Shown: piece by piece, positions 13,974 to 29,708 of the stretch
Layout: every line of letters begins with the position of its first letter
Position numbering within the stretch: the stretch's first letter is position 1
Origin: Runella sp. MFBS21
Lineage (GTDB): Bacteria > Bacteroidota > Bacteroidia > Cytophagales > Spirosomataceae
Assembly (NCBI RefSeq): GCF_029433105.1
Contig: NZ_JARNTW010000002.1
Span: forward strand, 227,744-291,743
Direction of reading: 5' to 3'
Length of the DNA stretch: 64,000 nucleotides
The notes under the pieces: generated by a model
What the model was told of the DNA's origin: nothing
What the model saw: the letters and a program-made list of their open reading frames with translations, nothing else
Databases searched by the model: none
Made by a program: the position numbers and the translations under genes

Positions 13974-14699
13974 TTAGTTTGCTAGATATTGTTTGATACC
14001 AGTTTCAATCAAAGCAATCTCACTAGCTACGCCTTCTTTGGCGGCGATAGTAGCTTGGATTTTTTGTTCTATTTCAACGAATTTGTCCGTAAATTTACCG
14101 TCTATTCCGTTGAGAGTTGCTAATTTTTCAGCCTGTATTTTTTCTAAATTGCTAATTTCTTGCTTAAGCTTGGCTAATTGTTGCTCAATATTAGCTACTT
14201 CATTGTTCAATTGTTTTTGTTCGATGTCTTTTTCTGCATTGAGAGCTGTTTTCTTTTGCTCACCTGCGCTGATAGTTGCCTCAAAAGCTTTTTGAAGCTC
14301 AGTTTTGTAAAAATTGGCAGAATCAAGCAAAAATTGTTGATTACAATTAGGATTTAATAACTTAGCGCCTTCATATGCGGTTTTGAAGTGGTCTAAAGTA
14401 GGGCTGCTGCTCGTACGCAATAGCATCATTGAAAATTCATAAAAATCGAACCCTGGTTGATTTTTATCCTCTAATATTTTTTTGAATCGATTTCTTAATT
14501 CATCTACAAATTCTGTAGATGAAGGGGTGTTTAAGGGAGGGGGAACCGAAGGAGTACTAACAGGAGAAGGGGTAGTGGGAGAGGGGGCTGGGGAAGAAGT
14601 TTTTTTCTCTTCCTCTTTAGGTTCATCTAGCACCACAAACACGCCCGCTAGGTTGCGGAGCCAGCCACTTACTTTATTTTTTTGAGGTTCGTCTGCCAT
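13974..14699 (-). CDS. coiled-coil protein of unknown function
   Basis: 241 residues with no signal peptide or membrane span. Residues 1-30 are basic and Trp/Leu-containing (SGWLRNLAGVFVVLDEP). Residues about 32-65 form a Pro/Ser/Thr-rich linker. Residues 66-135 form a small helical region, and 135-215 form a long Lys/Glu/Gln-rich heptad-type coiled coil (IEQKQLNNEVANIEQQLAK). No family is recognised. It precedes the membrane-anchored Ppx-like gene on the same strand, separated only by tandem repeats, so the two may form a complex. That partnership is inference from position. Confidence 0.7.
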   Translation of the reverse strand: MADEPQKNKVSGWLRNLAGVFVVLDEPKEEEKKTSSPAPSPTTPSPVSTPSVPPPLNTPSSTEFVDELRNRFKKILEDKNQPGFDFYEFSMMLLRTSSSPTLDHFKTAYEGAKLLNPNCNQQFLLDSANFYKTELQKAFEATISAGEQKKTALNAEKDIEQKQLNNEVANIEQQLAKLKQEISNLEKIQAEKLATLNGIDGKFTDKFVEIEQKIQATIAAKEGVASEIALIETGIKQYLAN

Positions 14700-14997
14700 A
14701 GCGAATGTTTGAATTAAAAATCAGTGGAAAGTTATAAAAACCCTTGAAAACATAGCGTAAAGGTAGATAAGAATTTATTAGAGGGTTATGAAGGAGTACA
14801 AGAACGGTTGAAAATACGGTTGATTGAAGGATTTTTTAGGATAAATTTTATTTTTTTTTAAACTAAGGGTGGGGTCTTTGTCACTTCGCTTGACTGTATA
14901 GCTCAAAACCGCTAAACACCGAAAGCGAATGCATTATTCTTGGGATGATACGGCTGTATACCGGCGAGAAACCCACCCTGCTTTTTTGTCGGAAGCT

Positions 14998-15579
14998 ATG
15001 GAAGGAAAAATCGTTGATGACGAAGAAATTGTGAGGAGAATGTTCAGAGATGATCCTCGCAAAGCCTTTGAAGTACTTTTCAAGCGCCATTACGATAGGC
15101 TCTGCAACCATGCCATTCGGTTTGTGGTCTCTAAAGATATTGCCGAAGATATCGTAGCTGAGGTATTTACGGCATTTTGGCATCGCCGTTTGTTTGAGCA
15201 AGTGGCTACTTCTTATCGAGCCTACTTGTATCGAGCGGTAAGGTATCAAGCTTACAACTACTTGAAATGGGAGCTTCATCGCAGCGACTCTCTGGAAGGT
15301 GTGGATATATTGATGCATTTGCCTGAGCAAAATCCCGATGAGATTCTGCACTATAACGAACTGCATCATAAGATTGATGAAGTCATATTGCATCTTCCTA
15401 CTCAAAGCCGCAAGGCATTTTTGATGCATCGCATGGAAGGAAAAAAATACGGAGAGATTGCCGAGTCATTGGGCATATCGGTAAGTGCGGTGGAGAGGCT
15501 TGTGAGTAGAGCTTTGTCAAAACTACGTAGTGAGCTGAAGGGATTTTGGCTAGGATTACTTTTTATTTTTTGGATTTAA
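14998..15579 (+). CDS. ECF RNA polymerase sigma factor of the second SusCD locus
   Basis: 193 residues from the ATG at 14998 (MEGKIVDDEE), which places the first region-2 helix at the usual distance from the N terminus. An in-frame ATG at 14929 would add 23 residues of no recognisable sequence and remains possible. Region 2 includes FEVLFKRHYDRL and DIVAEVFTAFW. Region 4 includes LPTQSRKAFLMHRMEGKKYGEIAE and ISVSAVERLVSRAL. A hydrophobic Trp/Phe-rich tail ends the protein. It is the first gene of the plus-strand locus, with its FecR partner 8 bp downstream, and is divergent from the coiled-coil gene. Confidence 0.92.
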   Translation: MEGKIVDDEEIVRRMFRDDPRKAFEVLFKRHYDRLCNHAIRFVVSKDIAEDIVAEVFTAFWHRRLFEQVATSYRAYLYRAVRYQAYNYLKWELHRSDSLEGVDILMHLPEQNPDEILHYNELHHKIDEVILHLPTQSRKAFLMHRMEGKKYGEIAESLGISVSAVERLVSRALSKLRSELKGFWLGLLFIFWI

Positions 15580-15587
15580 CAACCGCC

Positions 15588-16601
15588 ATGATGGACTCAA
15601 ACCAAGTTCCTAAGTCTATTTTATTTGCCTTTTTTGAGGGAAAAGCCACCGCTATGCAGCGTAAAATGATAGAAGAGTGGCTAGAAACGCCTGCTAGTAG
15701 AGAATATTTTTATCAGTGTTTGGACGAATGGGAAGGCCAACATCCTCAGTATATATTGAGCGAGGAGCATGTTCACCAAGCTTTCAATCAGATTTTGGAT
15801 AATCCTCCTTTTGAGAGGCTTGAATCTGCGATAAAACCTGTTCATAAAACTATTTTTGGTTCAAAACAATGGTTGATAGCTGCCTCGCTAACATTGATGA
15901 TGCTCACAATGAGTTGGGTATTTCGCAAAACAATATTCTTCAAAACTTATCACACTGATTTTGCCCAAACCCAAACGCTGACTCTGCAGGACGGCAGTAC
16001 CGTCACACTCAATGCCAATAGCTCGCTATGGGTACCGCGCTTTGAGTTTTATAAAGACCAGAGAGAGGTGTGGCTCGAAGGAGAAGCAGAATTTAAAGTA
16101 ACCCACACGCATGACCATAAACGCTTTGTGGTCAAAACAGACTCGGATTTTGCTATTGAGGTGTTGGGGACGGAGTTTGTGGTTCAAACCCGCAAAAAAC
16201 AAAATAGCGTAGTGCTCAATCATGGGAAAGTGAAGGTAAACTACGCCCTAGGTAAAGCGCTCTATATGAAGCCAGGGGAGCTATTTGTGGTCAATAAACA
16301 ATCTGGCAAAGCAGAACTTAAGCAAGTCGCAAAGCCCCATCAATACAGTGCTTGGAAGCAGCACGAATTTTATTTTGATAATACCCCCTTCGTAGAAGTA
16401 GCCGAACTTATTCATGACCAATTTGGCCTGAAAATGAGCATTCCTGACTCAGCACTTGCCCAAAGAAAAATCACGGGTTATTTCAAGGCAAAACGCGCCG
16501 AAGATATGCTGTCGGCTCTTCAAATGTTGCTTGAAGTTCGATTTGAACGCAAAGAAAACAACGTAATAGAAATTCATACTCGTCCAATTATAAACCTTTG
16601 A
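15588..16601 (+). CDS. FecR-family anti-sigma factor
   Basis: 337 residues from the ATG at 15588 (a second ATG follows at 15591). An upstream in-frame TTG would overlap the sigma gene and is less likely. The cytoplasmic sigma-binding part contains FAFFEGKATAMQRKMIEEWL. A membrane segment follows (about 100-120), then the periplasmic FecR domain with LTLQDGSTVTLNANSSL, VWLEGEAEFKV and IEVLGTEFVV, and the C-terminal DUF4974 module. It should hold the sigma factor at 14998 and receive the signal from the STN domain of the transporter encoded 5 bp downstream. Confidence 0.94.
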   Translation: MMDSNQVPKSILFAFFEGKATAMQRKMIEEWLETPASREYFYQCLDEWEGQHPQYILSEEHVHQAFNQILDNPPFERLESAIKPVHKTIFGSKQWLIAASLTLMMLTMSWVFRKTIFFKTYHTDFAQTQTLTLQDGSTVTLNANSSLWVPRFEFYKDQREVWLEGEAEFKVTHTHDHKRFVVKTDSDFAIEVLGTEFVVQTRKKQNSVVLNHGKVKVNYALGKALYMKPGELFVVNKQSGKAELKQVAKPHQYSAWKQHEFYFDNTPFVEVAELIHDQFGLKMSIPDSALAQRKITGYFKAKRAEDMLSALQMLLEVRFERKENNVIEIHTRPIINL

Positions 16602-16606
16602 ATATT

Positions 16607-19600
16607 ATGAGGAATTCTTTACTGCTCACTATGAGGCTTTTGCTAGTAGTGATTGGCCTAAATCTATTACAGCCTTTGGCGTGGGCACAGTTGGTGGCAG
16701 CTGCACCTAAGTTGGCGGTTTCTCAGCAGCTTGCAGGAGGAAGCAAGTCAATTCCTTCAAACGCCATGTCGCTTAAAGAAGCCTTAAAAAAGTTAGGCCA
16801 AGAAAATCAGGTTAGTATTTTGTTTGAAGAGGTAGTAGTCAAAGACATGATGATATCTTCGACTTTGATTGAAAAAACAGATAAACTTGAATCAAAGCTG
16901 AAAAGTTTGCTGAAACCTTATGGCCTCACGGCCAAGAAAGTCGGAAGAGATGCTTATGTCATTGTAGAAGAAAAAACGAAGCAAAAAGAAAAAAGCAATG
17001 CTTCTGTCAAAGACACCCCTGAAGCTACTTTGGTAGAAGAACAAGAGGGGATAGCTCTGCAATCCAATATAGGTGTGCCAACGAAGTCTATTCAGTTGAT
17101 TGAAAAGGTCGTAAAAGGAAAAGTAGTAGATGAAAAAGGGGAAGTATTGGTAGGGGTCAATGTAGCTGTAAAAGGAACCACCAAGGGCACCTCGACCGAT
17201 ATAGAAGGCAATTACCAGATTAGTTTGCCAACAGAGGCTACTACTTTGGTTTTTAGTTTTATTGGATACGAAAAAAAGGAAATTTTGGTCAATGCTCAGA
17301 CCGTAATCAATATCACCTTGAGTAGTTCTAATCAGACCTTGGGAGAGGTAGTAGTGGTAGGATATGGGTCGCAGAAAAAATCCGAACTAGTGGGGTCGGT
17401 CTCTCAACTAAACGCCGATCAAATAGGCAAACGGCAAGTAACGCAAGTCTCCAATGCCCTCACGGGCCAAATGCCTGGCGTGACAGTGGTACAACGCTCA
17501 GGGCGCCCCGGTAGGAGTGCAGGCAATATCAATATCAGAGGGATAGGTTCGTTTGGGGCAGATGCTTCTCCTCTGATTTTGGTGGACAATATCCCCGTGG
17601 CAGATTTTAATGAAGTAGACCCAAATGATATTGAGAGTGTATCGGTACTCAAAGATGCCTCGTCAGCAGCGATTTATGGGGCACGCGCAGCCAATGGCGT
17701 AGTGCTTATTACGACCAAAATGGGCAAAGAAGGAAAGACCCAAATTGCTTACAATACTTACTTAGGGATTCAGTCGCCCACCAAATTTCCTGAAGTGGTA
17801 GATTCGTGGGAATATGCCACTCTTTATAATGAAGCAATTGGCAGTCAGCAATTTGCGGCGGATATTATTCAAAAATATAAAGATGGTACCGACCCTAAAT
17901 ACCCGAATGTGAAGTTTTTGGACGAAATCGCCAAAAATGGCTTGATTCAAAGTCACAACTTCTCTATCAATGGAGGAACTCAAAATTCACAATATGTGCT
18001 TTCGTTGGGGTATTTGGACCAGAGTGGGATTGTTGACAAAAACAATTTTAAGAGATACAATGTACGCCTGAACCTTACCAGTAAGCTTCACGAAAAATTG
18101 ACACTCTTTACGCGCTTATCAGCAGTAGGCAAAGCTATCTCAGAACCAAGTACGCCAGGTGGTCTTGATTTTAAGGGACTTACGCAGATTTTTTCGCAAG
18201 CAGTGCGTTTCCCTTCTATTCATCCCGCCAAACTAGAAGATGGTACTTATGGTAAAGGCCCTATCAATACAGGGACACCAGTATCTTGGATTGAAAGCGC
18301 GTCTTTCTATAATACCACCGGCATGGAACTCGTCGGCAATGCCCGCCTTGATTGGCAAGTGCTGCCAGATTTTAAAGTATCGGGGATTTTGGGATATACC
18401 AACAATAGCCTTAAAAACAAGGATTTTCAAGCAAGTCAGGTTATCGATCCTACTTTGACGCTTGGGCCTTCGGTGTTGTACAATGACCAATCTTCTCAAT
18501 CTTACGTGACGAGCCAAGCCTTGGCGGAGTATCGCAAACAGCTACAGAAGCATCAGTTCAATGTATTGGTGGGTTATTCTTTCGAAACACAACGTTATGA
18601 GTTTTTCTCAGCGCAGCGCGACAAACTCCCTAGCAATGATTTAACTCAAATCAACTTAGGTGCTCCCGACAATCAACGCGCTAACGGTTCGGCTTATGAG
18701 TGGGCGTTGCAGTCTATTTTTGGAAGGCTAAAATACGATTTTGCAGGTAAATATTTGTTTGAGTCAACGGTGCGCTATGATGGTTCATCGCGTTTTCCAA
18801 CCAATAATAAATACGCCTTCTTCCCGTCGATTGCGGGAGCGTGGCGGCTATCAGAAGAGGCATTTTTGAAAGATGTTAATTGGCTTCAAGACTTGAAAAT
18901 TAGGGCGTCTTGGGGGATTTTAGGTAATCAAAATATCTCTAATTATCCTTATCAGCAAACCTACGCCAGCGGACAAAACTACTCATGGGGAGGGCTTGTA
19001 TATCCGGGGGTGGCTTTGGCAGCCTTGCGCGACCCCAATATTCATTGGGAATCTACTCGTACGGCTGATGTGGGGATAGATGCTAGTTTTTGGAGTGGAA
19101 AACTAAACATAGGAGTTGGTTATTTTGATCGCTATACTTATGATATTTTGTTTCGCCCAAGTGCCAGTATTTCAAGCGTTTTGGGGGTAAGTATTTCTGA
19201 AACTAATACAGGGAAATTGACCAATAAAGGTTGGGAAATTACGGCTAATCACCAAAATAGAATAGGTGCGCTCAAATATCAAGTGGGAGGAAATTTAACC
19301 ATCACCAACAATGAAGTACTTGACTTAGGTGTAGGGAATGTCAAACAACCCAACGGCCTCATCGGAAATGGCTCTAATTTGTTTATTGGGTATCCTATCG
19401 GGATGTATTATGGGTACAAATCAGACGGCTTATTTATTAGTGAGGATGATATCAAAAACTACGCAGTTCAAACCAGTGTTAATCCTCGTCCGCGTCCAGG
19501 AGATATTCGTTACCAGGATATTTCGGGACCCGAAGGCAAGCCTGATGGTAAAGTAGATGCTAATTATGATCGTACTTATTTAGGGTCAACGATTCCTAAA

Positions 19601-20077
19601 TATACTTTCGGGTTCAACTTAGGTGCACAGTGGAAAAACTTTGATGTGAGTGCACTTTTGCAAGGTGTGGCGGGTGTCAAAGGAAACCTAGGGGGCTATG
19701 CTGGATATGCATTTTACAATACAGCCACGGCCCAAAAATGGCACCTCGACCGTTGGACTCCCGAAAATCCTCGCCGCGATGCGCCTTATCCTCGCTTAGA
19801 ACTTATTTCCAACCAAGGCACTCCTAATACCGTATCCTCAGATTTTTGGAATATCAGTGCTTCTTATCTGCGCATACGCAATGTACAGGTGGGCTATACT
19901 TTGCCAAAAATTAATAATAAAAAATTGAAAATGAGTCAATTGAGGTTTTATGCAGCGGCTGAAAACTTCAAGACTTGGAGTAAATATCGTCCTGGGTGGG
20001 ATCCTGAAATCAACACTTCTGGCGAGTTTTACCCCATTTTAGCCAACTTTACTTTTGGTGCTAACCTCAAATTCTAA
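16607..20077 (+). CDS. SusC/RagA family TonB-dependent glycan transporter with STN domain
   Basis: 1156 residues from the ATG at 16607. The reading frame could start at a TTG at 16598 that overlaps the FecR stop, but the ATG leads straight into the signal peptide (ends AWAQ). STN domain at about 55-115, carboxypeptidase regulatory-like domain at about 165-240 (VVKGKVVDEKGEVLVGVNV), then LGEVVVVGYGSQKK, a plug with LILVDNIPV, and a barrel ending FGANLKF. It imports a glycan across the outer membrane and signals through FecR. It is well diverged from the SusC at 7315, so the two loci probably recognise different ligands (inference). Confidence 0.96.
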   Translation: MRNSLLLTMRLLLVVIGLNLLQPLAWAQLVAAAPKLAVSQQLAGGSKSIPSNAMSLKEALKKLGQENQVSILFEEVVVKDMMISSTLIEKTDKLESKLKSLLKPYGLTAKKVGRDAYVIVEEKTKQKEKSNASVKDTPEATLVEEQEGIALQSNIGVPTKSIQLIEKVVKGKVVDEKGEVLVGVNVAVKGTTKGTSTDIEGNYQISLPTEATTLVFSFIGYEKKEILVNAQTVINITLSSSNQTLGEVVVVGYGSQKKSELVGSVSQLNADQIGKRQVTQVSNALTGQMPGVTVVQRSGRPGRSAGNINIRGIGSFGADASPLILVDNIPVADFNEVDPNDIESVSVLKDASSAAIYGARAANGVVLITTKMGKEGKTQIAYNTYLGIQSPTKFPEVVDSWEYATLYNEAIGSQQFAADIIQKYKDGTDPKYPNVKFLDEIAKNGLIQSHNFSINGGTQNSQYVLSLGYLDQSGIVDKNNFKRYNVRLNLTSKLHEKLTLFTRLSAVGKAISEPSTPGGLDFKGLTQIFSQAVRFPSIHPAKLEDGTYGKGPINTGTPVSWIESASFYNTTGMELVGNARLDWQVLPDFKVSGILGYTNNSLKNKDFQASQVIDPTLTLGPSVLYNDQSSQSYVTSQALAEYRKQLQKHQFNVLVGYSFETQRYEFFSAQRDKLPSNDLTQINLGAPDNQRANGSAYEWALQSIFGRLKYDFAGKYLFESTVRYDGSSRFPTNNKYAFFPSIAGAWRLSEEAFLKDVNWLQDLKIRASWGILGNQNISNYPYQQTYASGQNYSWGGLVYPGVALAALRDPNIHWESTRTADVGIDASFWSGKLNIGVGYFDRYTYDILFRPSASISSVLGVSISETNTGKLTNKGWEITANHQNRIGALKYQVGGNLTITNNEVLDLGVGNVKQPNGLIGNGSNLFIGYPIGMYYGYKSDGLFISEDDIKNYAVQTSVNPRPRPGDIRYQDISGPEGKPDGKVDANYDRTYLGSTIPKYTFGFNLGAQWKNFDVSALLQGVAGVKGNLGGYAGYAFYNTATAQKWHLDRWTPENPRRDAPYPRLELISNQGTPNTVSSDFWNISASYLRIRNVQVGYTLPKINNKKLKMSQLRFYAAAENFKTWSKYRPGWDPEINTSGEFYPILANFTFGANLKF

Positions 20078-20083
20078 ACCTCA

Positions 20084-21754
20084 ATGAAGACCTATATTTA
20101 TACTCAGCTCAAAAAAATTACCGCTTGGAACTTGTTAGTAGTTGGATTGATGACTGCTATAAGTTGTAAGGATGCCCTCGTAAAATCGCCTTTGACGGAG
20201 TTTGCCAGAGAAAGTTTTTGGCAAAGTGAAAGCAATGCAATGCTTGCGCTTGCGGGTGTTTATCGGGGCAACAATATTTATAATGTGGCAGAATTTAACC
20301 CTGCCGATTGGTGGTCGTACCACGGGCTTATTTTCTTAGAATTTGCCAGCGACAATGCTTACGACCGCCGTGGCGATAACTCCGCCGTTCATAAATTGAC
20401 CAATGGTACCAATCTTGCTACCAATGCTTATATGACCAACTACTGGACCAACAGCTACCTTCGAATTGCTCGTTGCCATGAGTTTTTGGAGAATATCGAT
20501 AGAGTCCCCATGGACGAGACCCGTAAAAAACGAATGGTTGCCGAAGTGAAATTTATCCGTGCATCGCAGTATTTTTATATGAGTCAATATTGGGGAGGAG
20601 TGCCATTGGTGACAAAATCCCTGACACCTTCCGAAGCCAATGCTCAAGTACGGGCCAGTAAGGCAGAAATAGTGAAGTTTACGGAAGATGAGTTTAAAGC
20701 ATCGGTGGCTGACTTGCCACGCCACAAAGATGTCGTAGCTGCGGAGCGTGGACGGGTCACCAAGCAAACTGTTCTGGCGTTTTTAGGGCGTTTGTATCTC
20801 GCCGAAAAACGCTATCAAGAAGCTGCTGATGTCTACAAACAAATCATTGATTTTGGCGACAACAGCATTGACCCCAACTATCTGAACTTATTTATACCAG
20901 CGGGTGAAAATAGCAATGAAATTATTTTTGCGAATCAGTTTGTAAACGACTTACAAGGTCAGGGATTTTTGCAGCATTGCTATCCTGCGGTTGCCAATGG
21001 CTGGCATATTTTCTGTCCTTTAGGCAGTATCGCCGAAGAATACGAATTTTCTGACGGTACTCCTTTCTCTTATACCGATTCGCGGTATGATTCAAAAAAC
21101 CTTGGCAAAAGCCGTGACCCACGTTTTGATTTTAACCTTATCTACAACAATGCATCTTTTAAAGGCCGCACTTATACCACGCATCCTGATGTGAGAGACT
21201 CTCCCGACCAACTCGGTGCAGGTAAACAAACCACTCAAACCGGCTATGGTATCCGTAAATTTAATGATGAATCATACAGCGGAAACTTACAGCAGTCTGG
21301 GGGCAATATACCAGTTATCAGATATGCGGAGGTGTTGTTAGGGTATTTGGAAGCAAAAATCGAAACAGGAGAAGTAACTCAGGCGCTTTTAGACCAGACT
21401 ATCAATTTGATTAGAAGGAGAGCTTCGGTGCAGATGCCTCCTATTACTTTCACCACTCTGACGCGCATAAAAGAACAAATGCGCCATGAGCGTCGGGTGG
21501 AACTTGCTTTTGAGGGGGTTCGCTATTGGGATTTGTTGCGTTGGGGAATTGCCCATCAGGTATTGAATGGTGATTTTTATGGTGCACCCTTCCCCGGTGC
21601 TAACAATATTCGCAAAAAAGGTACCACCATCGACCCCAACAGCCGCTGGTATGTCACTACTCGCGCATTTCGTCAGGGAGTGGATTACTTGTGGCCTATT
21701 CCGCAATCCGAAATCAATATCAACCCCAATTTAAAACAAAATCCAGGCTATTGA
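20084..21754 (+). CDS. SusD/RagB family outer-membrane glycan-binding lipoprotein
   Basis: 556 residues starting 6 bp after the susC stop. The lipobox is TAISC. Characteristic segments are FIRASQYFYMSQYWGGVPLV, RVTKQTVLAFLGRLYLAEKRY, the C-terminal MRHERRVELAFEGVRYWDLLRW, and the family ending YLWPIPQSEININPNLKQNPGY. It binds glycan at the cell surface as partner of the SusC at 16607 and is followed after 83 bp by a sulfatase. Confidence 0.95.
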   Translation: MKTYIYTQLKKITAWNLLVVGLMTAISCKDALVKSPLTEFARESFWQSESNAMLALAGVYRGNNIYNVAEFNPADWWSYHGLIFLEFASDNAYDRRGDNSAVHKLTNGTNLATNAYMTNYWTNSYLRIARCHEFLENIDRVPMDETRKKRMVAEVKFIRASQYFYMSQYWGGVPLVTKSLTPSEANAQVRASKAEIVKFTEDEFKASVADLPRHKDVVAAERGRVTKQTVLAFLGRLYLAEKRYQEAADVYKQIIDFGDNSIDPNYLNLFIPAGENSNEIIFANQFVNDLQGQGFLQHCYPAVANGWHIFCPLGSIAEEYEFSDGTPFSYTDSRYDSKNLGKSRDPRFDFNLIYNNASFKGRTYTTHPDVRDSPDQLGAGKQTTQTGYGIRKFNDESYSGNLQQSGGNIPVIRYAEVLLGYLEAKIETGEVTQALLDQTINLIRRRASVQMPPITFTTLTRIKEQMRHERRVELAFEGVRYWDLLRWGIAHQVLNGDFYGAPFPGANNIRKKGTTIDPNSRWYVTTRAFRQGVDYLWPIPQSEININPNLKQNPGY

Positions 21755-21837
21755 TTTTTGTGTCATTTTAAGGTAGTAATCTCACTATATTCGCACCATT
21801 TCTTTAGTTTCGACTTTCAATTTTACTTAGTGTTATT

Positions 21838-23346
21838 ATGTGGAAAACAAAAAAAATACTTGCGTTGTTGCTACTAGGATTGACCTTAGGGAGGGCCTAT
21901 AGCCAATCCAAACCCAATGTAGTCATCATTTATGCTGACGATTTGGGCTATGGTGATATAGGATGCTATGGTGCAAAAAAGGTTTCAACCCCCAATATTG
22001 ACAAGCTTGCTAAGGCAGGGCTTCGTTTTACCAATGCTCATACGAGTTCGGCTACTTGTACGCCTTCACGTTATTCTATGCTCACGGGCGAATACGCTTG
22101 GCGCAAACCCGGTACGGGTGTTGCTACGGGCGATGCGGCTGCTTTGATTTTGCCAGGGCGTAGTACGTTACCGCTGGTATTTCAGCAAGCAGGTTATAAA
22201 ACGGGTGTGGTAGGGAAATGGCATTTGGGGTTAGGGCCACAAGGGGGGCCCAATTGGAACGGCGACATCAAACCAAGTCCTTTGGATATTGGGTTTGATT
22301 ACTCCTACATCATGGCTGCTACTGGCGATCGCGTGCCGTGTGTATATGTCGAAAACAGGCGAGTCGTAAACCTAGATCCTACTGATCCTATCCAAGTGAG
22401 TTTTAAAGAGCCTATCGGCAACGAACCTACGGGGCGTGCCAATCCCGAATTGTTGAAAATGAAACATTCGCACGGTCATGATTTTACAATTATCAATGGT
22501 ATTGGACGCATTGGATACATGACAGGAGGAAAATCGGCGCGTTGGAAAGATGAAGATATGGCGGATATTTTTACAAGTAAAGCCGTAGAATTTATCGAAA
22601 AAAACAAAGCTGAACCCTTCTTCCTTTATTTTTCTACCCAAGACATCCACGTACCTCGTGTGCCACATCAGCGTTTTGTGGGTAAAAGTGGCATGGGACC
22701 TCGTGGTGATGTAATTGTCCAACTTGATTGGACGGTAGGCGAAGTAATGAAAGCTTTGGATAGACTCAATTTATCCAAGAATACCATTGTTGTTTTCTCG
22801 AGCGACAATGGCCCTGTTGTGGACGATGGCTATCAAGACCAAGCTGTGGAGCTTCTGAATGGACATACTCCTGCTGGTCCTTTGCGCGGCGGAAAATACA
22901 GTGCTTTTGACGCAGGTACACGTGTGCCGTTTATTGTACGCTGGCCGGGACAAGTGAAAGCAGGAGTGTCGGGCGCGGCAGTAAGTCAAGTCGATTTATT
23001 GGCTTCTTTTGCGGCATTCACGGGGCAGTCTTTTGATGCTACTACGGCCCCCGATACGCGCAATCAACTAGCGGCTTTATTGGGAAAAGACAAAAAAGGA
23101 CGTGATTTTATCATCGAACACGCAGGTACTTTTTCACTTCTGAAAGACAACTGGAAATACATCGAACCCAGCAAAGGCCCTAAAATGAGCGTACAAACCA
23201 ACACGGAGCTTGGCAACAACCCTGAGCCACAATTATATGATTTGTCAAAAGACTTAGGAGAAACCAACAATCTCGCTACCACCAATCCAACTAAGTTGAA
23301 AGAAATGCAGGATTTGTTGAGAGAGATTAAGGAGAAGCGGAAATAG
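21838..23346 (+). CDS. sulfatase, S1 family (FGly type)
   Basis: 502 residues with a cleavable signal peptide (1-23, ending AYSQ). NVVIIYADDLGYGDIGCYG holds D34 and D35. The catalytic signature is C74-T-P-S-R, followed by SMLTGEYAWR. GKWHLG and the late SSDNGP motif are also present. Length is normal for arylsulfatases. It is the last gene of the plus-strand SusCD locus and is followed by a strong terminator. It should desulfate the glycan imported by this locus. Confidence 0.93.
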   Translation: MWKTKKILALLLLGLTLGRAYSQSKPNVVIIYADDLGYGDIGCYGAKKVSTPNIDKLAKAGLRFTNAHTSSATCTPSRYSMLTGEYAWRKPGTGVATGDAAALILPGRSTLPLVFQQAGYKTGVVGKWHLGLGPQGGPNWNGDIKPSPLDIGFDYSYIMAATGDRVPCVYVENRRVVNLDPTDPIQVSFKEPIGNEPTGRANPELLKMKHSHGHDFTIINGIGRIGYMTGGKSARWKDEDMADIFTSKAVEFIEKNKAEPFFLYFSTQDIHVPRVPHQRFVGKSGMGPRGDVIVQLDWTVGEVMKALDRLNLSKNTIVVFSSDNGPVVDDGYQDQAVELLNGHTPAGPLRGGKYSAFDAGTRVPFIVRWPGQVKAGVSGAAVSQVDLLASFAAFTGQSFDATTAPDTRNQLAALLGKDKKGRDFIIEHAGTFSLLKDNWKYIEPSKGPKMSVQTNTELGNNPEPQLYDLSKDLGETNNLATTNPTKLKEMQDLLREIKEKRK

Positions 23347-23406
23347 AAGTAGGTAAATAATACATCAAAATACTACACCCTATTACCACTTGGTGAGAGG
23401 TATTAC

Positions 23407-23435
23407 AAAAACCGCCCTTTTATGGGGCGGTTTTT
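23407..23435 (+). terminator. rho-independent terminator of the second SusCD locus
   Basis: AAAAACCGCCC and GGGCGGTTTTT pair perfectly around a seven-base loop, with a T-run on the plus strand. It lies about 60 bp after the sulfatase stop and separates the locus from the KGGVGR cassette. Confidence 0.93.
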
Positions 23436-23541
23436 GTGGTTAAAAGGGTACAAATAGCTTTTAAAATAGGTAGCTGAAAAGGGTTGACAAATTCAAGTTT
23501 TTTCGTTTGCTTTAAGGTGAAAAATTTGCTTTTAGCTTCTG

Positions 23542-24462
23542 ATGATGTACGATATTTATAGTTTAGCGCTTGAAAATCTTCCCAAACTGCAAATTAGTTA
23601 TGAGGAGTGTCGTTATTGCATTGATGATGTATGTCTTCAAAATTTTGAAAATCACCTTCGAGAAAAAGGAGAAGTGACGGTAGCGACGTTTTCTGGCTTT
23701 GCCTTTCAAAATAGAGCTGATGGGGAATTGTATTGCTCAGGAAGAGAGGGGGATAAAGAAGGGCGCCAAAGAGAGCTGATACTATCAAGTATTTTACAAA
23801 AAGGCGCTTATCTAAACGCTTACGAGCGCTTTGACAGTGAAGAAGAACGAGGAGCTCATTTTAGCAAATTTAAAGGTGAACGAGCTACTTTTGACACTAC
23901 TTTTACAGAAGGACAAAAATTTAAATATCTCAATTTCAACAATGGGCAGCTAGGTATTCCTGCGTTTGGAGATTTTACGTTGGCTTTTCCGTTGAGTCAT
24001 TTTGAGGAGAATAACTTAGTATTTGTTAAATACAACAGTCTCATTCGGAAAGAAAAAGGACAAACACAATGTTTTTATTTTACTGAAAACAATGAGGCCG
24101 TATCTGTTGAAATCCTTGTTCAAGATTTAAGTACACTCGAACATTTTATCCCTCTCATCGTTTTAAAAAGAAAGGAAGATTTGGCAAATGGCACCGATAT
24201 TGACTACAATTTGTTAGTATTGAAACCTTTTGGAGATGCCTCCAACAAACACCGCGATTACGTAGAAGTAATTACATGGCAAGAGGTAAAAATTCAAACC
24301 GGGGTTCGGCTACGTGCCGAAAAGGAACGTTTTCAGGCATTGATTGATGCAATCATGACTCCTACGGTAGCTTTGGGGGCAGAAATTAGGAATATAACGG
24401 AGTTACAAACGTTGATTAGTAGCTATGAAACAAATAATCAACTAACTACAGAATTGGTTTAA
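23542..24462 (+). CDS. unrecognised protein, first gene of the KGGVGR ATPase cassette
   Basis: 306 residues, soluble, no signal peptide. The N-terminal 30 residues hold three cysteines (C23, C26, C31). Residues about 40-130 are charged. Residues about 130-260 look like a mixed beta domain (YLNFNNGQLGIPAFGDFTLAF, DYNLLVLKPFG). The C terminus is helical. No catalytic motif is recognised. Two start codons are in tandem (23542 and 23545). The next gene starts 3 bp after its stop, so it is surely co-transcribed with the ATPase at 25014. It may be a sensor or effector component. No function is claimed. Confidence 0.75.
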   Translation: MMYDIYSLALENLPKLQISYEECRYCIDDVCLQNFENHLREKGEVTVATFSGFAFQNRADGELYCSGREGDKEGRQRELILSSILQKGAYLNAYERFDSEEERGAHFSKFKGERATFDTTFTEGQKFKYLNFNNGQLGIPAFGDFTLAFPLSHFEENNLVFVKYNSLIRKEKGQTQCFYFTENNEAVSVEILVQDLSTLEHFIPLIVLKRKEDLANGTDIDYNLLVLKPFGDASNKHRDYVEVITWQEVKIQTGVRLRAEKERFQALIDAIMTPTVALGAEIRNITELQTLISSYETNNQLTTELV

Positions 24463-24465
24463 AGT

Positions 24466-25017
24466 ATGACCTTAACACTCATTGCAGCTACCTTCACCGA
24501 TGGATACGGTATAGTGGCAGATACACATGGCGAAGTTTATTTGGTAAAGCCTCCCTTTGATTTTCATGGGAAAGAACACTTGCCGTATGAGCAAATTAAG
24601 TCAACCATTTCACAATTCGGGTTTAGGGAGTTGAATGAGCATTTTCCTACTTGGGAGGCAGTTTTTGAACGATTACGCCAAATTGCGTGGCAAGCTCGTC
24701 GTGAAGCTGGAGATTCCAATACAACGATTTTGGAAGAAGATAAAAAAGCCTTTTTTCGTAGTATTCCCTCAGGCTTTTTGAGTGGTGCCGTTGAAAAAAT
24801 GGAAAGCTATTTGAAGGAAGAAAAGTATTATACCGCATTATTTGTTGGTGAAGCCTTGTTGGAGAATCATAATCTTTCTAAAAATGGAGAATTGTTTAAA
24901 CGAGTAAAAAAGGCTGTAGAAGATGCGGAACTCAAACGTCAAGAAATCACCTCACGCTTCAAAAACTTTAATCCTGATAAAGTACGAAATCCCCAATTCA
25001 ACCTTCAAATGGCATGA
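24466..25017 (+). CDS. unrecognised protein, second gene of the KGGVGR ATPase cassette
   Basis: 183 residues. A short N-terminal beta-like part (TLIAATFTDGYGIVADTHGEVY) is followed by helices, including IPSGFLSGAVEKMESYL and a TPR-like YYTALFVGEALLENH. No signal peptide, membrane span or known motif. Its TGA stop overlaps the ATG of the ATPase gene (ATGA at 25014-25017), indicating translational coupling and probably a fixed stoichiometry with it. It may be an adaptor. Function unknown. Confidence 0.75.
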   Translation: MTLTLIAATFTDGYGIVADTHGEVYLVKPPFDFHGKEHLPYEQIKSTISQFGFRELNEHFPTWEAVFERLRQIAWQARREAGDSNTTILEEDKKAFFRSIPSGFLSGAVEKMESYLKEEKYYTALFVGEALLENHNLSKNGELFKRVKKAVEDAELKRQEITSRFKNFNPDKVRNPQFNLQMA

Positions 25018-26570
25018 AAACCATTACCTTTTATTCATTCAAAGGTGGAGTGGGACGCTCATTGACACTTTCAAACATGGCACTTTGGCTAGCCGATGAA
25101 ATGAAAGCTAAAGTGTGCGTTATTGACTTTGACTTGGAAGCACCTGGGTTGCCTTACAAGTTTGATGATTTACAAAATCCAGAAGATCAAGAACGCTTGG
25201 CACATACTGAAGGAATTGTAGAGTATGTGGATGAATTTAACCAAACAGGCTTTCCTCCCGCTGATTTTACACGTTTTTATTTGTCCTTTACTACGGCCAA
25301 AGGAAACCCTATCTCATTGATTCCGGCGGGAAATCTGCAACAAGCCGATTATTGGCGAAAACTATTTGATATTAACTGGCAACAACTGTTTGAATATGAC
25401 GCTTCTACGGGTTACAGCAAAGGACTTTTGCTACTGGAAGATTTAAAAGGACGTATCGAAGCTGAACTTGCACCCGATTTTTTGTTGATTGATTCACGTA
25501 CAGGACTGACCGAAACGGCATCTATTACCTTAAAACTAATGGCCGATAAAGCTATCTTGGTAGGAATCAATAATCGCGAAAACCAAGACGGGCTATTTTG
25601 GGTACTTCGCAGTTTATACGCCGACCCTTCAAGTCGCAATTTACCTTATCACTTGGTGCTAAATCGTGTACCTATGCAATACGGCACAGGCCGTAAAGAA
25701 ATTGACCCCCGCGAAAAAATGCTTCGAGAAAGCTTCTTAAAACGCTTTGAATCCTTGGCCTCTCTTGACTACTTTGCTCAACGCTTCTCTATCATCCACG
25801 CCGACGACGAACAAGCGTTTGAAGAGAAACTTCAAGCGGGTTTTTACGTAGAATCACAGCCCAAAGTACAAATACGAAAAGATTATTGGGATGTATTTAC
25901 GCAAGTAACAAAGGAATATTTCACTGATGCACAATGGAACATTTTTGACAGAAAGCGAAAAGCGTATGAGCTGTATTACAAAGCGAAGTTTGATACAACG
26001 GATGTACAAACGCAAATTGATTTGATAAATGAGGCAATTGGCTATTGTGACGATGACGCGTTTTTGTATAATTATCGTTTTATTTTGGTTTATAATTCTG
26101 GGAATAAAGAAACCGTTCATTTGGATCTAGAGAAAGCTGTCGTACTTAAACCAGATGATGTTAAATTAAGATATAATTTGGGGGTTATATATGCTAGACA
26201 GAAGAAGTATGATTTAGCTATTGAGGCTTACTATAAAGCTATTAAAATAGACCCCAGTTACAATAAAGTGTGGCATAACTTAAGTAATAACTTCATTAAT
26301 TTTTCGTATCAGCAAAAAGAACCTCAAAAATCTGAAACACTACAGAAAGCACTTGAAGCGGCACAAAAATCCCAAGAATTAGGAGGGAAAGTTTATAACT
26401 TATCCTGTGTTTACTCTTTGTTCAATGACAAGCGAAATGCTCTATATTGGCTTCAACAAGCTCTAGAAAGAAAAGACGTTACAGTAGAACACGTCCAAAA
26501 AGACCGGGATTTTGATTCGCTACGCGAGGATGAGGATTTTAAAGCATTGCTTGCTCAATTCTCTTCCTGA
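25014..26570 (+). CDS. KGGVGR-motif MinD/ParA-type ATPase with TPR-like C terminus
   Basis: 518 residues. The N-terminal P-loop domain has the deviant Walker A motif FKGGVGRS (K10 is the signature lysine), the switch VIDFDLEAPG (D38, D40), and LLIDSRTGLTE (D160) at Walker B. This variant replaces the usual KGGVGKT with KGGVGR. Residues about 330-470 form TPR-like helices (YNLGVIYARQKKYDLAIEAYYKAI), and the end resembles the tail of TPR proteins (VQKDRDFDSLREDEDFKALL). KGGVGR ATPases are often found in bacterial conflict-type systems next to effector genes (family knowledge). Two unrecognised partners precede it in one tight operon. Not a chromosome-partition gene, since no ParB is nearby. Confidence 0.88.
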   Translation: MKTITFYSFKGGVGRSLTLSNMALWLADEMKAKVCVIDFDLEAPGLPYKFDDLQNPEDQERLAHTEGIVEYVDEFNQTGFPPADFTRFYLSFTTAKGNPISLIPAGNLQQADYWRKLFDINWQQLFEYDASTGYSKGLLLLEDLKGRIEAELAPDFLLIDSRTGLTETASITLKLMADKAILVGINNRENQDGLFWVLRSLYADPSSRNLPYHLVLNRVPMQYGTGRKEIDPREKMLRESFLKRFESLASLDYFAQRFSIIHADDEQAFEEKLQAGFYVESQPKVQIRKDYWDVFTQVTKEYFTDAQWNIFDRKRKAYELYYKAKFDTTDVQTQIDLINEAIGYCDDDAFLYNYRFILVYNSGNKETVHLDLEKAVVLKPDDVKLRYNLGVIYARQKKYDLAIEAYYKAIKIDPSYNKVWHNLSNNFINFSYQQKEPQKSETLQKALEAAQKSQELGGKVYNLSCVYSLFNDKRNALYWLQQALERKDVTVEHVQKDRDFDSLREDEDFKALLAQFSS

Positions 26571-26590
26571 TTGAAGCTATTCCTTTCCCT

Positions 26591-26875
26591 TCACCTCGCT
26601 CGAATCGACTTAATCTTTATCCAGCGTGCATCTTTATAGCCAGGTCTTTCGTCGGGTTCAAATCTTATCCATACCTTATTGTTTTCTTTCTCAAAAGAAG
26701 CGGGCACCGTGGCTCGGTACATGGTAGAATCTACCCACACAAACCATCCTCCACAATATCCACAAAAAGTATAATCGCGGTTGGCAATAGTGGCGGCTTG
26801 TTCTTTGAGGCGCACATTTTCGCAACTGCTCAAGGTGGCACTGCCTACCAATAAAACAAATATTACTTTTTTCAT
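26591..26875 (-). CDS. small lipoprotein of unknown function
   Basis: 94 residues with a lipobox (TLSSC, lipidated cysteine 18) after a clean signal peptide. The mature part holds a CGYCGGW segment and a short beta-rich C terminus (NKVWIRFEPDERPGYK). It converges with the KGGVGR ATPase gene, leaving 20 bp. No homologous family is recognised. The paired cysteines might bind metal or form a disulfide. Confidence 0.7.
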   Translation of the reverse strand: MKKVIFVLLVGSATLSSCENVRLKEQAATIANRDYTFCGYCGGWFVWVDSTMYRATVPASFEKENNKVWIRFEPDERPGYKDARWIKIKSIRAR

Positions 26876-26915
26876 TTACATCCCCTTTACCCCTAAGGAC
26901 TCTCAATAACAGTAA

Positions 26916-26951
26916 ATGGTTGGAAACCATGTAGTACAGGCATCCTGCCTG
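26916..26951. repeat. double small hairpin element
   Basis: Two adjacent inverted repeats, ATGGT/ACCAT (26916-26930) and CAGGC/GCCTG (26937-26951), lie between the small lipoprotein and the beta-lactamase-like gene. They look like a short dispersed repeat of the REP type, but only one copy is present here. Confidence 0.35.
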
Positions 26952-27024
26952 CGATATTGTAGTTGTATGAGAAATCAAATATGAATGGGAGGATATCTAA
27001 AACTTTATGCACAGTGTCTTATTA

Positions 27025-28236
27025 TCACCTAATTGCCGCTTTAAACACTGCTTCTCTGATAGGATTGGGATTAAAATAATCTTTTGTGGGCTGTAAACCC
27101 ATATTTTGGCGATTAATGAGGAGAATCACCGAAAGCTTTTGAGTAGGCACTACCACAATACTCGTTCCCGTAAAACCCGTATGACCAAAAGTGCCTGCGG
27201 GAGCATTTCGCATCAAGGCACTTTGAGTATCCATCATCCAGCCTAGGCCATTCTTAAAATTGTCTTGAGTTAAAAATAGCGACACGGTTTTGGAAGAAAT
27301 AAACTTTTTACCTCTGACCATACCTTTATTTTTGAGCATATCTACTAGTTTTTGGAGGTCATCGACGGGCGAGAAAAGCCCCGCCGCGCCCGAAATACCC
27401 TCGTTGGCGTACCAGGCGTTGCCATCATTTACTTCACCTTTGAGGAGGTATTGACGCCATCCATTCCAGCTTTTAGGGTCTAGTCCTTTTACCACAAATC
27501 CCAGCGTGGAGTCTTCTATCATGCGTTTTTCATAAGGATTTCCCATCGAAGTCGCTGCGATGAGGTTGGCGGCTTTGTCGGGATTGTAGGTGGTGTGGGT
27601 CATACGAAGAGGGGCAAAAATTTCGGTTTTTAGGTAAGCATCCAAGCTTTTTCCCGAAACCTTCTCGATGATTTCGCCCAAGAGCGTAAAACCCAAATCG
27701 GAATAGTGCCGACCTTCTCCTACGGGATATTTCAAAGGAAGTTGTTTGATAAAAGCATAGGTATCTGTTCGTTTGTTTGAGAAATAATACAAAGGATACC
27801 ATTCATACATGCCCGATGTATGCGTTAGGAGGTGGCGGAGGGTGATTTTGGCTTTTTCTCCTTCTTCAAAACCTGCTACATATCGTGCTACTGGGGCTTC
27901 TATATTGAGTTTTCCTTGGTCGTGGAGCTTCATGATTGCCGTAGTCGTACCTACTACTTTTGTCAATGATGCAATATCAAACAAATGATTGACGGTCATC
28001 CGTTCGGGGCGTTCTGCAATTGAACCGTCAAACTCTTTGAGCTGGGCATAGCCATAAGCTTTTTGAAGGAGTACTTTATCTCCTTTTTTGATAGTAACTA
28101 CCGCTCCGGGGATTTTTTTGTCGGCAATGTATTTTTCAATCACTGAACTGACTTCTTGGTCAAGTACTTGGATTGAGGGGGTTTGGGCAAGGGCAACCTG
28201 AACAAAAAAGAGCAATAAAAAAGCGACAGATTTCAT
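27025..28236 (-). CDS. serine hydrolase, beta-lactamase family (class C fold)
   Basis: 403 residues with a signal peptide (1-17, ending ALAQ). The catalytic SxxK motif is S90-L-T-K93. The second motif is Y178-S-D180, in place of the class C YxN. HTGFTG near residue 345 occupies the KTG position. These features are typical of the broad Beta-lactamase (PF00144) group that includes esterases, D-aminopeptidases and penicillin-binding-protein-like enzymes. It is periplasmic or surface located. There is no AmpR-type regulator nearby, so true beta-lactamase activity is not implied. Confidence 0.88.
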   Translation of the reverse strand: MKSVAFLLLFFVQVALAQTPSIQVLDQEVSSVIEKYIADKKIPGAVVTIKKGDKVLLQKAYGYAQLKEFDGSIAERPERMTVNHLFDIASLTKVVGTTTAIMKLHDQGKLNIEAPVARYVAGFEEGEKAKITLRHLLTHTSGMYEWYPLYYFSNKRTDTYAFIKQLPLKYPVGEGRHYSDLGFTLLGEIIEKVSGKSLDAYLKTEIFAPLRMTHTTYNPDKAANLIAATSMGNPYEKRMIEDSTLGFVVKGLDPKSWNGWRQYLLKGEVNDGNAWYANEGISGAAGLFSPVDDLQKLVDMLKNKGMVRGKKFISSKTVSLFLTQDNFKNGLGWMMDTQSALMRNAPAGTFGHTGFTGTSIVVVPTQKLSVILLINRQNMGLQPTKDYFNPNPIREAVFKAAIR

Positions 28237-28325
28237 CCAATGAATAGTAATGTTAGCGAAAAAGGTTTCTTGCGAAGATACACCTAAAAACCTTTTTATC
28301 CCTAATCAAAAATAGAATACGATGG

Positions 28326-29708
28326 CTAGCTACCTCCGCATCCGCCACAGCCACCACATCCTCCCGAGCCACATCCTCCACTTCCACAGCTAGCGGTGCC
28401 GCTATCACTAGCAGCATTAGAAGTAAAACTTGCTCCCCACCACCCTACGCCATCGCCTGAAGTAGGGGGTTTGTGAAAAAGGTGCGGGAGTGTGTGGCCA
28501 TCGGCAAAGGTATAAGTTGTATTGAAAAGCATAAATGTCAGGGCAGCAGTGCTTATGTCGTAACTCCATTCCGAGGCTTGATACGAATTTTGGGTGTCTT
28601 GATCGAGCAATGATGACTGACTTAGGATTATCCAAACCAGTACATAAAATACAAGCAGCAGCAATAAGAAAATGACGGGGCGGGCATTCAAGATTCCCTG
28701 AAAAACCCTAACAATACCAACCAATAACACCAACCACTGAAAAATATTGACCCATACACCTCGTGAAAGTGTTTGTTTAAGAGAAAGGGTCGCTTTGGAA
28801 ATGGTTTTTGCGAACGAAAATAAGCTATCTCGAAGAAGGTTAGCCGAGATATCTTTTTCATCGTAGGCTTGCAGCGAATACATCATCGGCTGGTGAATAC
28901 GTTTATCACAGACAAACTTGTCGCCCGTTTGGTAGTGGAGCCAACCCTTTTCAGCAAAATCAGTGACAAGTGTTAAAAACAAAGTTTCGGTATCTTTAAA
29001 GACAGCCGCAAAGTGATAGGGGTGGAGCTGTTGAGTAGCCGCTTGTAAGACCATTTTCTTAAAGTTAATTTTAAGATAAATGCCCCAGTATGCCCAAACT
29101 ATCAAAACCATATATGCCAACAAAAAGAAGGGGCCAGACAATGAAAACATAAATAGCGACAAGATACTCAGCGCCAAAGCTCCAATAGGCCAATACTCTT
29201 TGCCTTGCCATAGAGAAGGAGTTTGCCAATTAGGTTTGCGAAAGAGCGAATTAGGAGAAAGATAAATTTCTAAATCTAGTCCAGAAAGCAGTGACCAATA
29301 GTCGGTGGGAGGAATCTCTTGGAACTCTTTTACATAGGCTATCAAAGTGTCGGCGTACCATTGTTGATGGCGGAGATTTTCTTTTTCATCCCCTTTATTG
29401 GGATAGTGATGAAGCTGTTTTTGTAATATTTCGCCGCAGAGTTTTTGCCAGTAGCTTACAGTATAGGTCAAATGCAAATGCCAAACTTTGTCGATTACCT
29501 CCGAAGGTGAGGCACCTTGGGGCATAGTGAGACAGAGGTATAAAAACTTTTTGTATTCGGCGATGGCACGTTTGGCAAAATCACCCGTCCATTTTTCCTC
29601 TTTGGCGAGCTTGTCCGAAAACTGAACAGCAGCGGCTTCGGCTGAATCATCTAATTGAAAATTGCTTATTTTTTCCCAAAGCGCAGGGTTTGAAAGTTGA
29701 AATTCCAT
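28326..29708 (-). CDS. TIGR04222-like membrane protein with Gly/Cys-rich tail
   Basis: 460 residues. The N-terminal cytosolic helical part includes PSEVIDKVWHLHLTYTVSYW (about 70-90), similar to the conserved WHLHL segment of glycine-rich-domain proteins. Two membrane segments lie at about 173-210, and further ones around 320-365. The last 20 residues are CGSGGC-type repeats that end in GGCGGS. This arrangement matches the TIGR04222 membrane protein group, whose function is unknown. The tail could bind metal or be a processing signal (inference). It is oriented away from the repeat pair at 29748. Confidence 0.78.
   Translation of the reverse strand: MEFQLSNPALWEKISNFQLDDSAEAAAVQFSDKLAKEEKWTGDFAKRAIAEYKKFLYLCLTMPQGASPSEVIDKVWHLHLTYTVSYWQKLCGEILQKQLHHYPNKGDEKENLRHQQWYADTLIAYVKEFQEIPPTDYWSLLSGLDLEIYLSPNSLFRKPNWQTPSLWQGKEYWPIGALALSILSLFMFSLSGPFFLLAYMVLIVWAYWGIYLKINFKKMVLQAATQQLHPYHFAAVFKDTETLFLTLVTDFAEKGWLHYQTGDKFVCDKRIHQPMMYSLQAYDEKDISANLLRDSLFSFAKTISKATLSLKQTLSRGVWVNIFQWLVLLVGIVRVFQGILNARPVIFLLLLLVFYVLVWIILSQSSLLDQDTQNSYQASEWSYDISTAALTFMLFNTTYTFADGHTLPHLFHKPPTSGDGVGWWGASFTSNAASDSGTASCGSGGCGSGGCGGCGGCGGS

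Follow-up and report, generated by a model that had tools for sequence, protein, structure and literature searches.

The window, the whole 64,000-nucleotide stretch of Runella sp. MFBS21 DNA analysed here, carries three tandem genes on the forward strand, designated A (23542..24462, 306 aa), B (24466..25017, 183 aa), and C (25014..26570, 518 aa). A and B, recognised as open reading frames and by their codon-position pattern, represent orphan families without significant family match, and C encodes a KGGVGR-motif ATPase of MinD/ParA (SIMIBI) kind with C-terminal TPRs. A gap of 3 bp (24463-24465) separates A from B, and a 4-bp overlap, ATGA (25014-25017), joins B to C. The original prediction had described this layout, and its coordinates and lengths were confirmed from the open reading frames; its claim of a single unit of fixed stoichiometry was overstated, because an overlap does not show this. 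What the overlap suggests is translational coupling of B and C.

Upstream of A, a strong hairpin was found by RNA folding at 23402..23440 of the forward strand (-26 kcal/mol, z -6.1, none of 200 shuffles as good), and it is missing from the output of the consensus scan. Situated between the cassette and the sulfatase gene that precedes it, the hairpin is a probable terminator and probably isolates the cassette from that gene. Downstream of C, on the reverse strand, the open reading frame list contains a 94-aa gene (26591..26875), lipoprotein-like as read by eye from its N-terminus. This gene has no PADLOC match and is probably unrelated in function to the cassette, although it lies within the same insert.

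Features and conservation of the three genes

C matches the NCBIfam family NF047398 (AAA_KGGVGR) over residues 1-201 with 144.2 bits, above the curated cut-off of 90 (E 5.6e-42), and belongs to this family by score and by its KGGxGR P-loop. The KGGVGR motif occupies residues 10-15, and DFDLEAPG and LLIDSRTG stretches are also present. The canonical ParA/MinD P-loop is KGGxGK[ST], and the position held by arginine in KGGVGR is that of the usual Walker A lysine of P-loop ATPases; in the deviant P-loop of C this lysine is replaced by arginine and the first lysine of the motif is kept. C does not qualify as a ParA/MinD partition or division ATPase, given this replacement and a score of 21.3 bits against the MinD equivalog, which requires 212.9. 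No ParB or MinC/MinE partner was recognised by eye among the window open reading frames. The C-terminal part of C matches TPR_END_plus, the "TPR end-of-group" domain (NCBIfam, E 4.5e-23), and TPR_1 (Pfam, E 9.1e-11).

In contrast to the results for C, searches of Pfam, NCBIfam, PADLOC, and PHROGs gave nothing significant for A or B, and no housekeeping family was found for either protein in these collections. Pfam searches of A, B, and their orthologues with HMMER filters on gave no HEPN match up to E 10. No TIR or FxsC match was found for A or B in Pfam, or in NCBIfam for the window proteins, and these collections gave no nuclease or NADase match for B. A toxin motif or fold was seen in neither protein. 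A similarity of A to PCNA among solved structures (E 3.8e-4 over 44 residues, no single stretch passing; 0.45 for a second PCNA) was dismissed as chance, and B matched no solved structure by sequence up to E 10. The AlphaFold2 model of B, built from an alignment of two rows, reached pLDDT 78 and pTM 0.67, and predicts a beta-containing N-terminal part (about residues 1-60) followed by a helical, TPR-like C-terminal half; such an arrangement would fit an adaptor. The model of A (pLDDT 34) is uninformative on its fold. The original description of the third gene as a MinD/ParA-type KGGVGR ATPase with a TPR-like tail thus agrees with the family and TPR matches, and its statement that both partners are unrecognised was borne out. 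It had also named membership of the partners in housekeeping families as evidence against its reading, and neither A nor B matched one.

Only one other genome, G019, was found to contain the three genes, in the same order and with the same overlap, at a locus that shares coordinates with a Cytophagales MAG contig (L001). Protein identities between the two cassettes are 67% (A), 65% (B), and 67% (C). The fractions of differences at codon positions 1/2/3 are 0.24/0.20/0.48 for A (288 codons), 0.20/0.17/0.59 for B (183 codons), and 0.25/0.17/0.55 for C (512 codons), in a comparison of two cassettes in total that therefore carries no co-variation evidence. With differences concentrated at third positions, all three behave as real genes, and the pattern is a sequence signature of purifying selection on them. 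The A orthologue (L001:2774-3670) has one in-frame TAA near its start, 5' of a long well-conserved stretch, and the B and C orthologues are open. This stop may reflect loss of A, a later start codon, or an assembly error. The stop, together with the great rarity of the cassette, would also fit a decayed or neutral cargo remnant having no present function. However, none of the three window genes is interrupted, and third positions of codons account for most differences between the two cassettes (for A, the only gene that yielded both rates, dN is 0.23 and dS 2.1), and we regard a remnant as improbable.

Distribution and insertion site

A and B proved rare in the genome samples searched, which overlap between the searches. 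Among 149 relatives, A and B are each present in 2; the family yielded B in 2 of 222 genomes, the order an accepted A in 2 of 291, and the class A in 1 of 198. Six further order-level matches to A, all partial (E 3.8e-4 to 0.006), were dismissed on score with their loci unread. B was matched in 5 of 395 phylum genomes, but four of these matches were weak and partial (E 0.001-0.008) and were dismissed, one after inspection of its locus (L008) and three on tblastn alone. A pattern scan for A on the genome contigs of close relatives gave one locus. No match was found on viral contigs, neither A nor B was found on plasmids, and phages gave none for A and none for the ATPase domain of C. C-like ATPases were detected in 10 of 149 relatives at E<=1e-15, the window genome and G019 included, and in 2 of 395 phylum genomes at E<=1e-20, the window genome included. 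An open-access literature search returned no paper describing the cassette, as judged by title, and none for "KGGVGR".

Comparison with same-genus genomes places the cassette in an insert at 23351..27034. A blastn alignment of window positions 21001-29000 with G008 breaks off after 23350 and continues from 27035; G008 has 123 bp in place of 23351-27034, with 92% and 91% DNA identity in the flanks. In G008, G004, G001, G010, and G007, the upstream sulfatase gene adjoins the downstream serine-hydrolase gene without the cassette. Since the flanking genes are adjacent in these five congeners, the cassette is accessory. Neither A nor B was found in any of 12 other same-genus genomes, of which the remaining seven are uninformative on the site (flanks on different contigs in G006, the sulfatase only in five, neither gene in one). 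G004, G001, and G010 have other short sequence at the site, which blastn did not align to the insert. More generally, the sulfatase-hydrolase intergenic site (window 23346-27034) is occupied by different short sequences in different congeners, and some of these include what by eye looks like a lipoprotein-like gene; the site has the look of one where insertions vary. No integrase or transposase was noticed in the insert. The cassette has a GC content of 37-41%, as compared to 42-48% in windows 14500 to 22999, a weak contrast given that other parts of the profile also show 38-41%.

MinD/ParA-type ATPases position other proteins, and the three genes could in principle form a host regulatory module (e.g., for positioning or envelope stress), with the ATPase as a spatial switch and no toxin involved. 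The other open reading frames of the window, which by eye look like SusC/D, sulfatase, and housekeeping rather than defence genes, are in keeping with such a role, as is the positioning activity of this ATPase type. On the other hand, a distribution of 2 of 222 family genomes and absence at the site in congeners are unlike housekeeping, and the recognisable partners of related ATPases, described below, are of TIR, HEPN, and MqsA type. We therefore consider a host module unlikely.

Partner genes of related ATPases

Twenty-five non-orthologous loci encoding related ATPases were collected, comprising all nine genome matches and 16 of 22 matched plasmid records. The upstream gene could be read in 24 of them (nine chromosomal and 15 annotated plasmid loci; L045, without annotation, was left out). 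Neither A nor B occurs in any of the 25 (tblastn at E<=1; profiles recover the known orthologue only), the sole tblastn match being a 49-residue match to B at E 0.049 attributed to chance. The upstream gene nonetheless lies within 30 bp of the ATPase gene or overlaps it in 22 of 24 loci, the exceptions being L046 (68 bp) and L051 (80 bp).

The recognisable upstream partners are TIR, HEPN, MqsA-like or other HTH proteins; most partners reach no Pfam cut-off, and some are wholly unrecognised. A TIR gene precedes the ATPase gene in L024, and in L049 a TIR domain is part of the ATPase protein itself. L021 and L023 have an FxsC-like upstream gene below cut-off, and the upstream genes of L022 and L028 align to that of L021 at 27 and 29% identity. 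HEPN at the Pfam cut-off is found in L035 and L044, and the upstream gene of L051 is weakly AbiV-like; the term HEPN-like for L025, L026, L036, L046, L047, L050, and L053 rests on inspection by eye and on clade rather than on a match. An MqsA-type antitoxin match reaches the cut-off in L031 and L033 and falls just short of it in L032; L034 and L048 have weakly HTH genes.

Some of these loci have further features. The MqsA-type gene overlaps or adjoins the KGGVGR ATPase gene (L031:5492-7860, L032:5440-7860, L033:5498-7875), and no MqsR toxin is annotated in the stretches shown of these three loci, for which the plasmid gene tables are incomplete. A three-gene cassette recurs on plasmids (L036:5066-8402, L044:2629-5959, L046:2743-5932, L050:2683-5862, L051:2629-5908, L053:2735-5930), consisting of a HEPN or HEPN-like gene (130-181 aa), the KGGVGR ATPase gene (410-464 aa), and a 480-503-aa gene, which in the two tested gave weak NACHT/AAA matches below cut-off. 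L036 has a TIR gene nearby, and L051 is flanked by a BREX-2 pglX gene on one side and a DUF6079 gene on the other; the accessible part of a BREX paper (PMC12839542) does not mention "MinD", "SIMIBI" or "ParA-like". In L029 (genome G386), two orphan genes (284 and 187 aa) precede the ATPase gene, a layout like that of the window in which neither gene resembles A or B in sequence. Downstream of the ATPase gene in this locus (L029:1206-6806) lie two asparaginase-like genes, recognised by Pfam for the first, which overlaps the ATPase gene, and by eye for the second.

The placement of KGGVGR ATPases in conflict-type systems, put forward in the original prediction, is thus supported by relatives that adjoin TIR, HEPN, and MqsA-type genes. 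ATPase homologues without the two partners, which that prediction had named as evidence against itself, do exist among the distant loci (25 of 25), mostly with another small gene in place, whereas the close homologue keeps both partners (1 of 1).

A tree was built from 26 of 27 ATPase domains, a small sample picked by similarity to C (G139 was missed by the extraction pattern), and the 26 domains caught by this pattern all have KGGxGR. Ten HEPN or HEPN-like loci form one clade (98/93) together with G095, whose 99-aa upstream open reading frame is not classified. A clade of eight (96/98) contains the TIR and FxsC-like loci along with Pseudanabaena (unknown partner), R. beringeri (unread), and Rhizobium CC1099 (HTH). 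It is also in this clade that L048, with its HTH partner, falls. The MqsA-type loci group with Polymorphobacter (85/87), the window and G019 form a branch of their own (99/92), and G386 stands alone on a long branch. The branching order among these groups is poorly supported. ATPase clade and partner type travel together largely, not wholly, and the window cassette represents a separate partner type.

B ends in QFNLQMA (window 24985-25014) and its orthologue in QFTLDIQ. An F-x-L within the last 17 residues, a span picked after the tails were seen, is present in B, its orthologue, and 6 of 24 non-orthologous partners, as compared to 17 of 255 control open reading frames (7 of these 255 when only the last 9 residues are counted). 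By clade, these are all four partners of the MqsA/Polymorphobacter clade, three of which are homologous, and two of the HEPN clade (Nostoc and Gemmobacter); the HTH partner of L048 has no such tail. As a hint only, F-x-L could be a docking tail.

The position of B raises the alternative that B is the effector and A a sensor or antitoxin-like partner. Like the toxin or toxin-like gene of the relatives, B is directly upstream of, and overlaps, the ATPase gene, and its size is in line with that of their partners (HEPN or HEPN-like 130-187 aa, MqsA-like 167-185 aa, TIR 200 aa). However, its C-terminal half is predicted to form an array of TPR-like helices, an architecture that usually serves for binding; it matched neither a nuclease nor an NADase, and the gene broken in G019 is A, not B. 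We find it rather doubtful that B acts as the effector.

Discussion

Our results are consistent with the idea that the cassette is an effector module, horizontally acquired and gated by its ATPase, with A and/or B in place of a known partner, a reading to which we give an even chance. Of the two orphans, A is favoured as the effector: it is the larger, it is the one broken in G019, and B has the appearance of a binding protein; a stop confined to A is what would be expected if A were the costly part. B would then be the adaptor, or possibly a second effector. In the scenario we envisage, C would bind nucleotide through its deviant P-loop, with arginine for the Walker A lysine, and its TPR tail would serve as a sensor or scaffold. 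C would keep A inactive in a complex, directly or via the small adaptor B, until a trigger, phage or other stress, alters the nucleotide or TPR state of C and releases A, which would then harm or stall the cell. Complex formation, the roles of A and B, the trigger, and the outcome are all put forward here as predictions. Against this reading, A and B show no toxin motif or fold, and the 10 neighbours tested include no defence gene. Also against it, most upstream partners of the related ATPases stay below the Pfam cut-offs, and the HTH partner of L048 belongs to the TIR/FxsC-like clade. The original suggestion of an undescribed defence or stress system is plausible if the cassette is taken as a variant within a known kind of conflict module; the cassette is accessory and occurs as a unit in two genomes, but defence context is lacking, as PADLOC gave no hit in 10 of 11 neighbouring genes (15546 to 35602, the TonB-receptor gene left out).

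More tentatively, A and B could be founders of two new effector/adaptor families on partner-swapping KGGVGR ATPases that gate HEPN, TIR, and MqsA-associated effectors, possibly via the F-x-L tail of B and of MqsA/HTH-type partners in this branch. If so, KGGVGR ATPases would be a general nucleotide-driven switch with interchangeable effectors, and the ATPase could be used as bait for effector families missed by all profiles, of which A and B would be examples. As the tree largely follows partner type, the switch idea can be tested on a larger set. The KGGVGR ATPase class is known in pieces, and our open-access search found no paper joining these partner types under one ATPase.

Among known systems, the pair of HEPN (MAE_18760) and a ParA/Soj-like ATPase has been predicted to be a toxin-antitoxin system, with the antitoxin role proposed for the ATPase and exerted through a nucleotide-dependent change or through phosphorylation (Anantharaman et al. 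2013, PMC3710099). Our proposal that C restrains A through B until triggered is carried over by analogy from the accessible part of that work. As in that pair, a small gene adjoins a SIMIBI ParA/Soj-like ATPase gene, a likeness at the level of ATPase kind; unlike that pair as described there, A and B have no HEPN match, the genes number three rather than two, and the window ATPase has TPRs. MinD/ParA-like domains, predicted to be inactive, have also been described in predicted conflict systems, and a coupled AP-ATPase with a MinD/ParA-like domain in peptide-processing systems (Kaur et al. 2020, PMC7159879). Unlike these systems, as far as the available text of that paper describes them, the window has no MoxR, vWA, radical SAM, or FxSxx-type gene by eye in its open reading frame list. 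C also matches models of the PADLOC phage defence candidate PDC-M28B (E 7.7e-24 over residues 2-193; 2.8e-07 for a second model), over the shared ATPase domain only, and A and B match no PADLOC model. Finally, the cassette resembles the TIR/FxsC-like and KGGVGR pairs (L021-L024, L028; fused in L049) in that an ATPase of this class is directly preceded by another gene, or in the fused case itself carries the TIR domain, but differs from them in that their partner is TIR or FxsC-like (the latter below cut-off) instead of A and B, and in that their ATPases fall in a separate clade.
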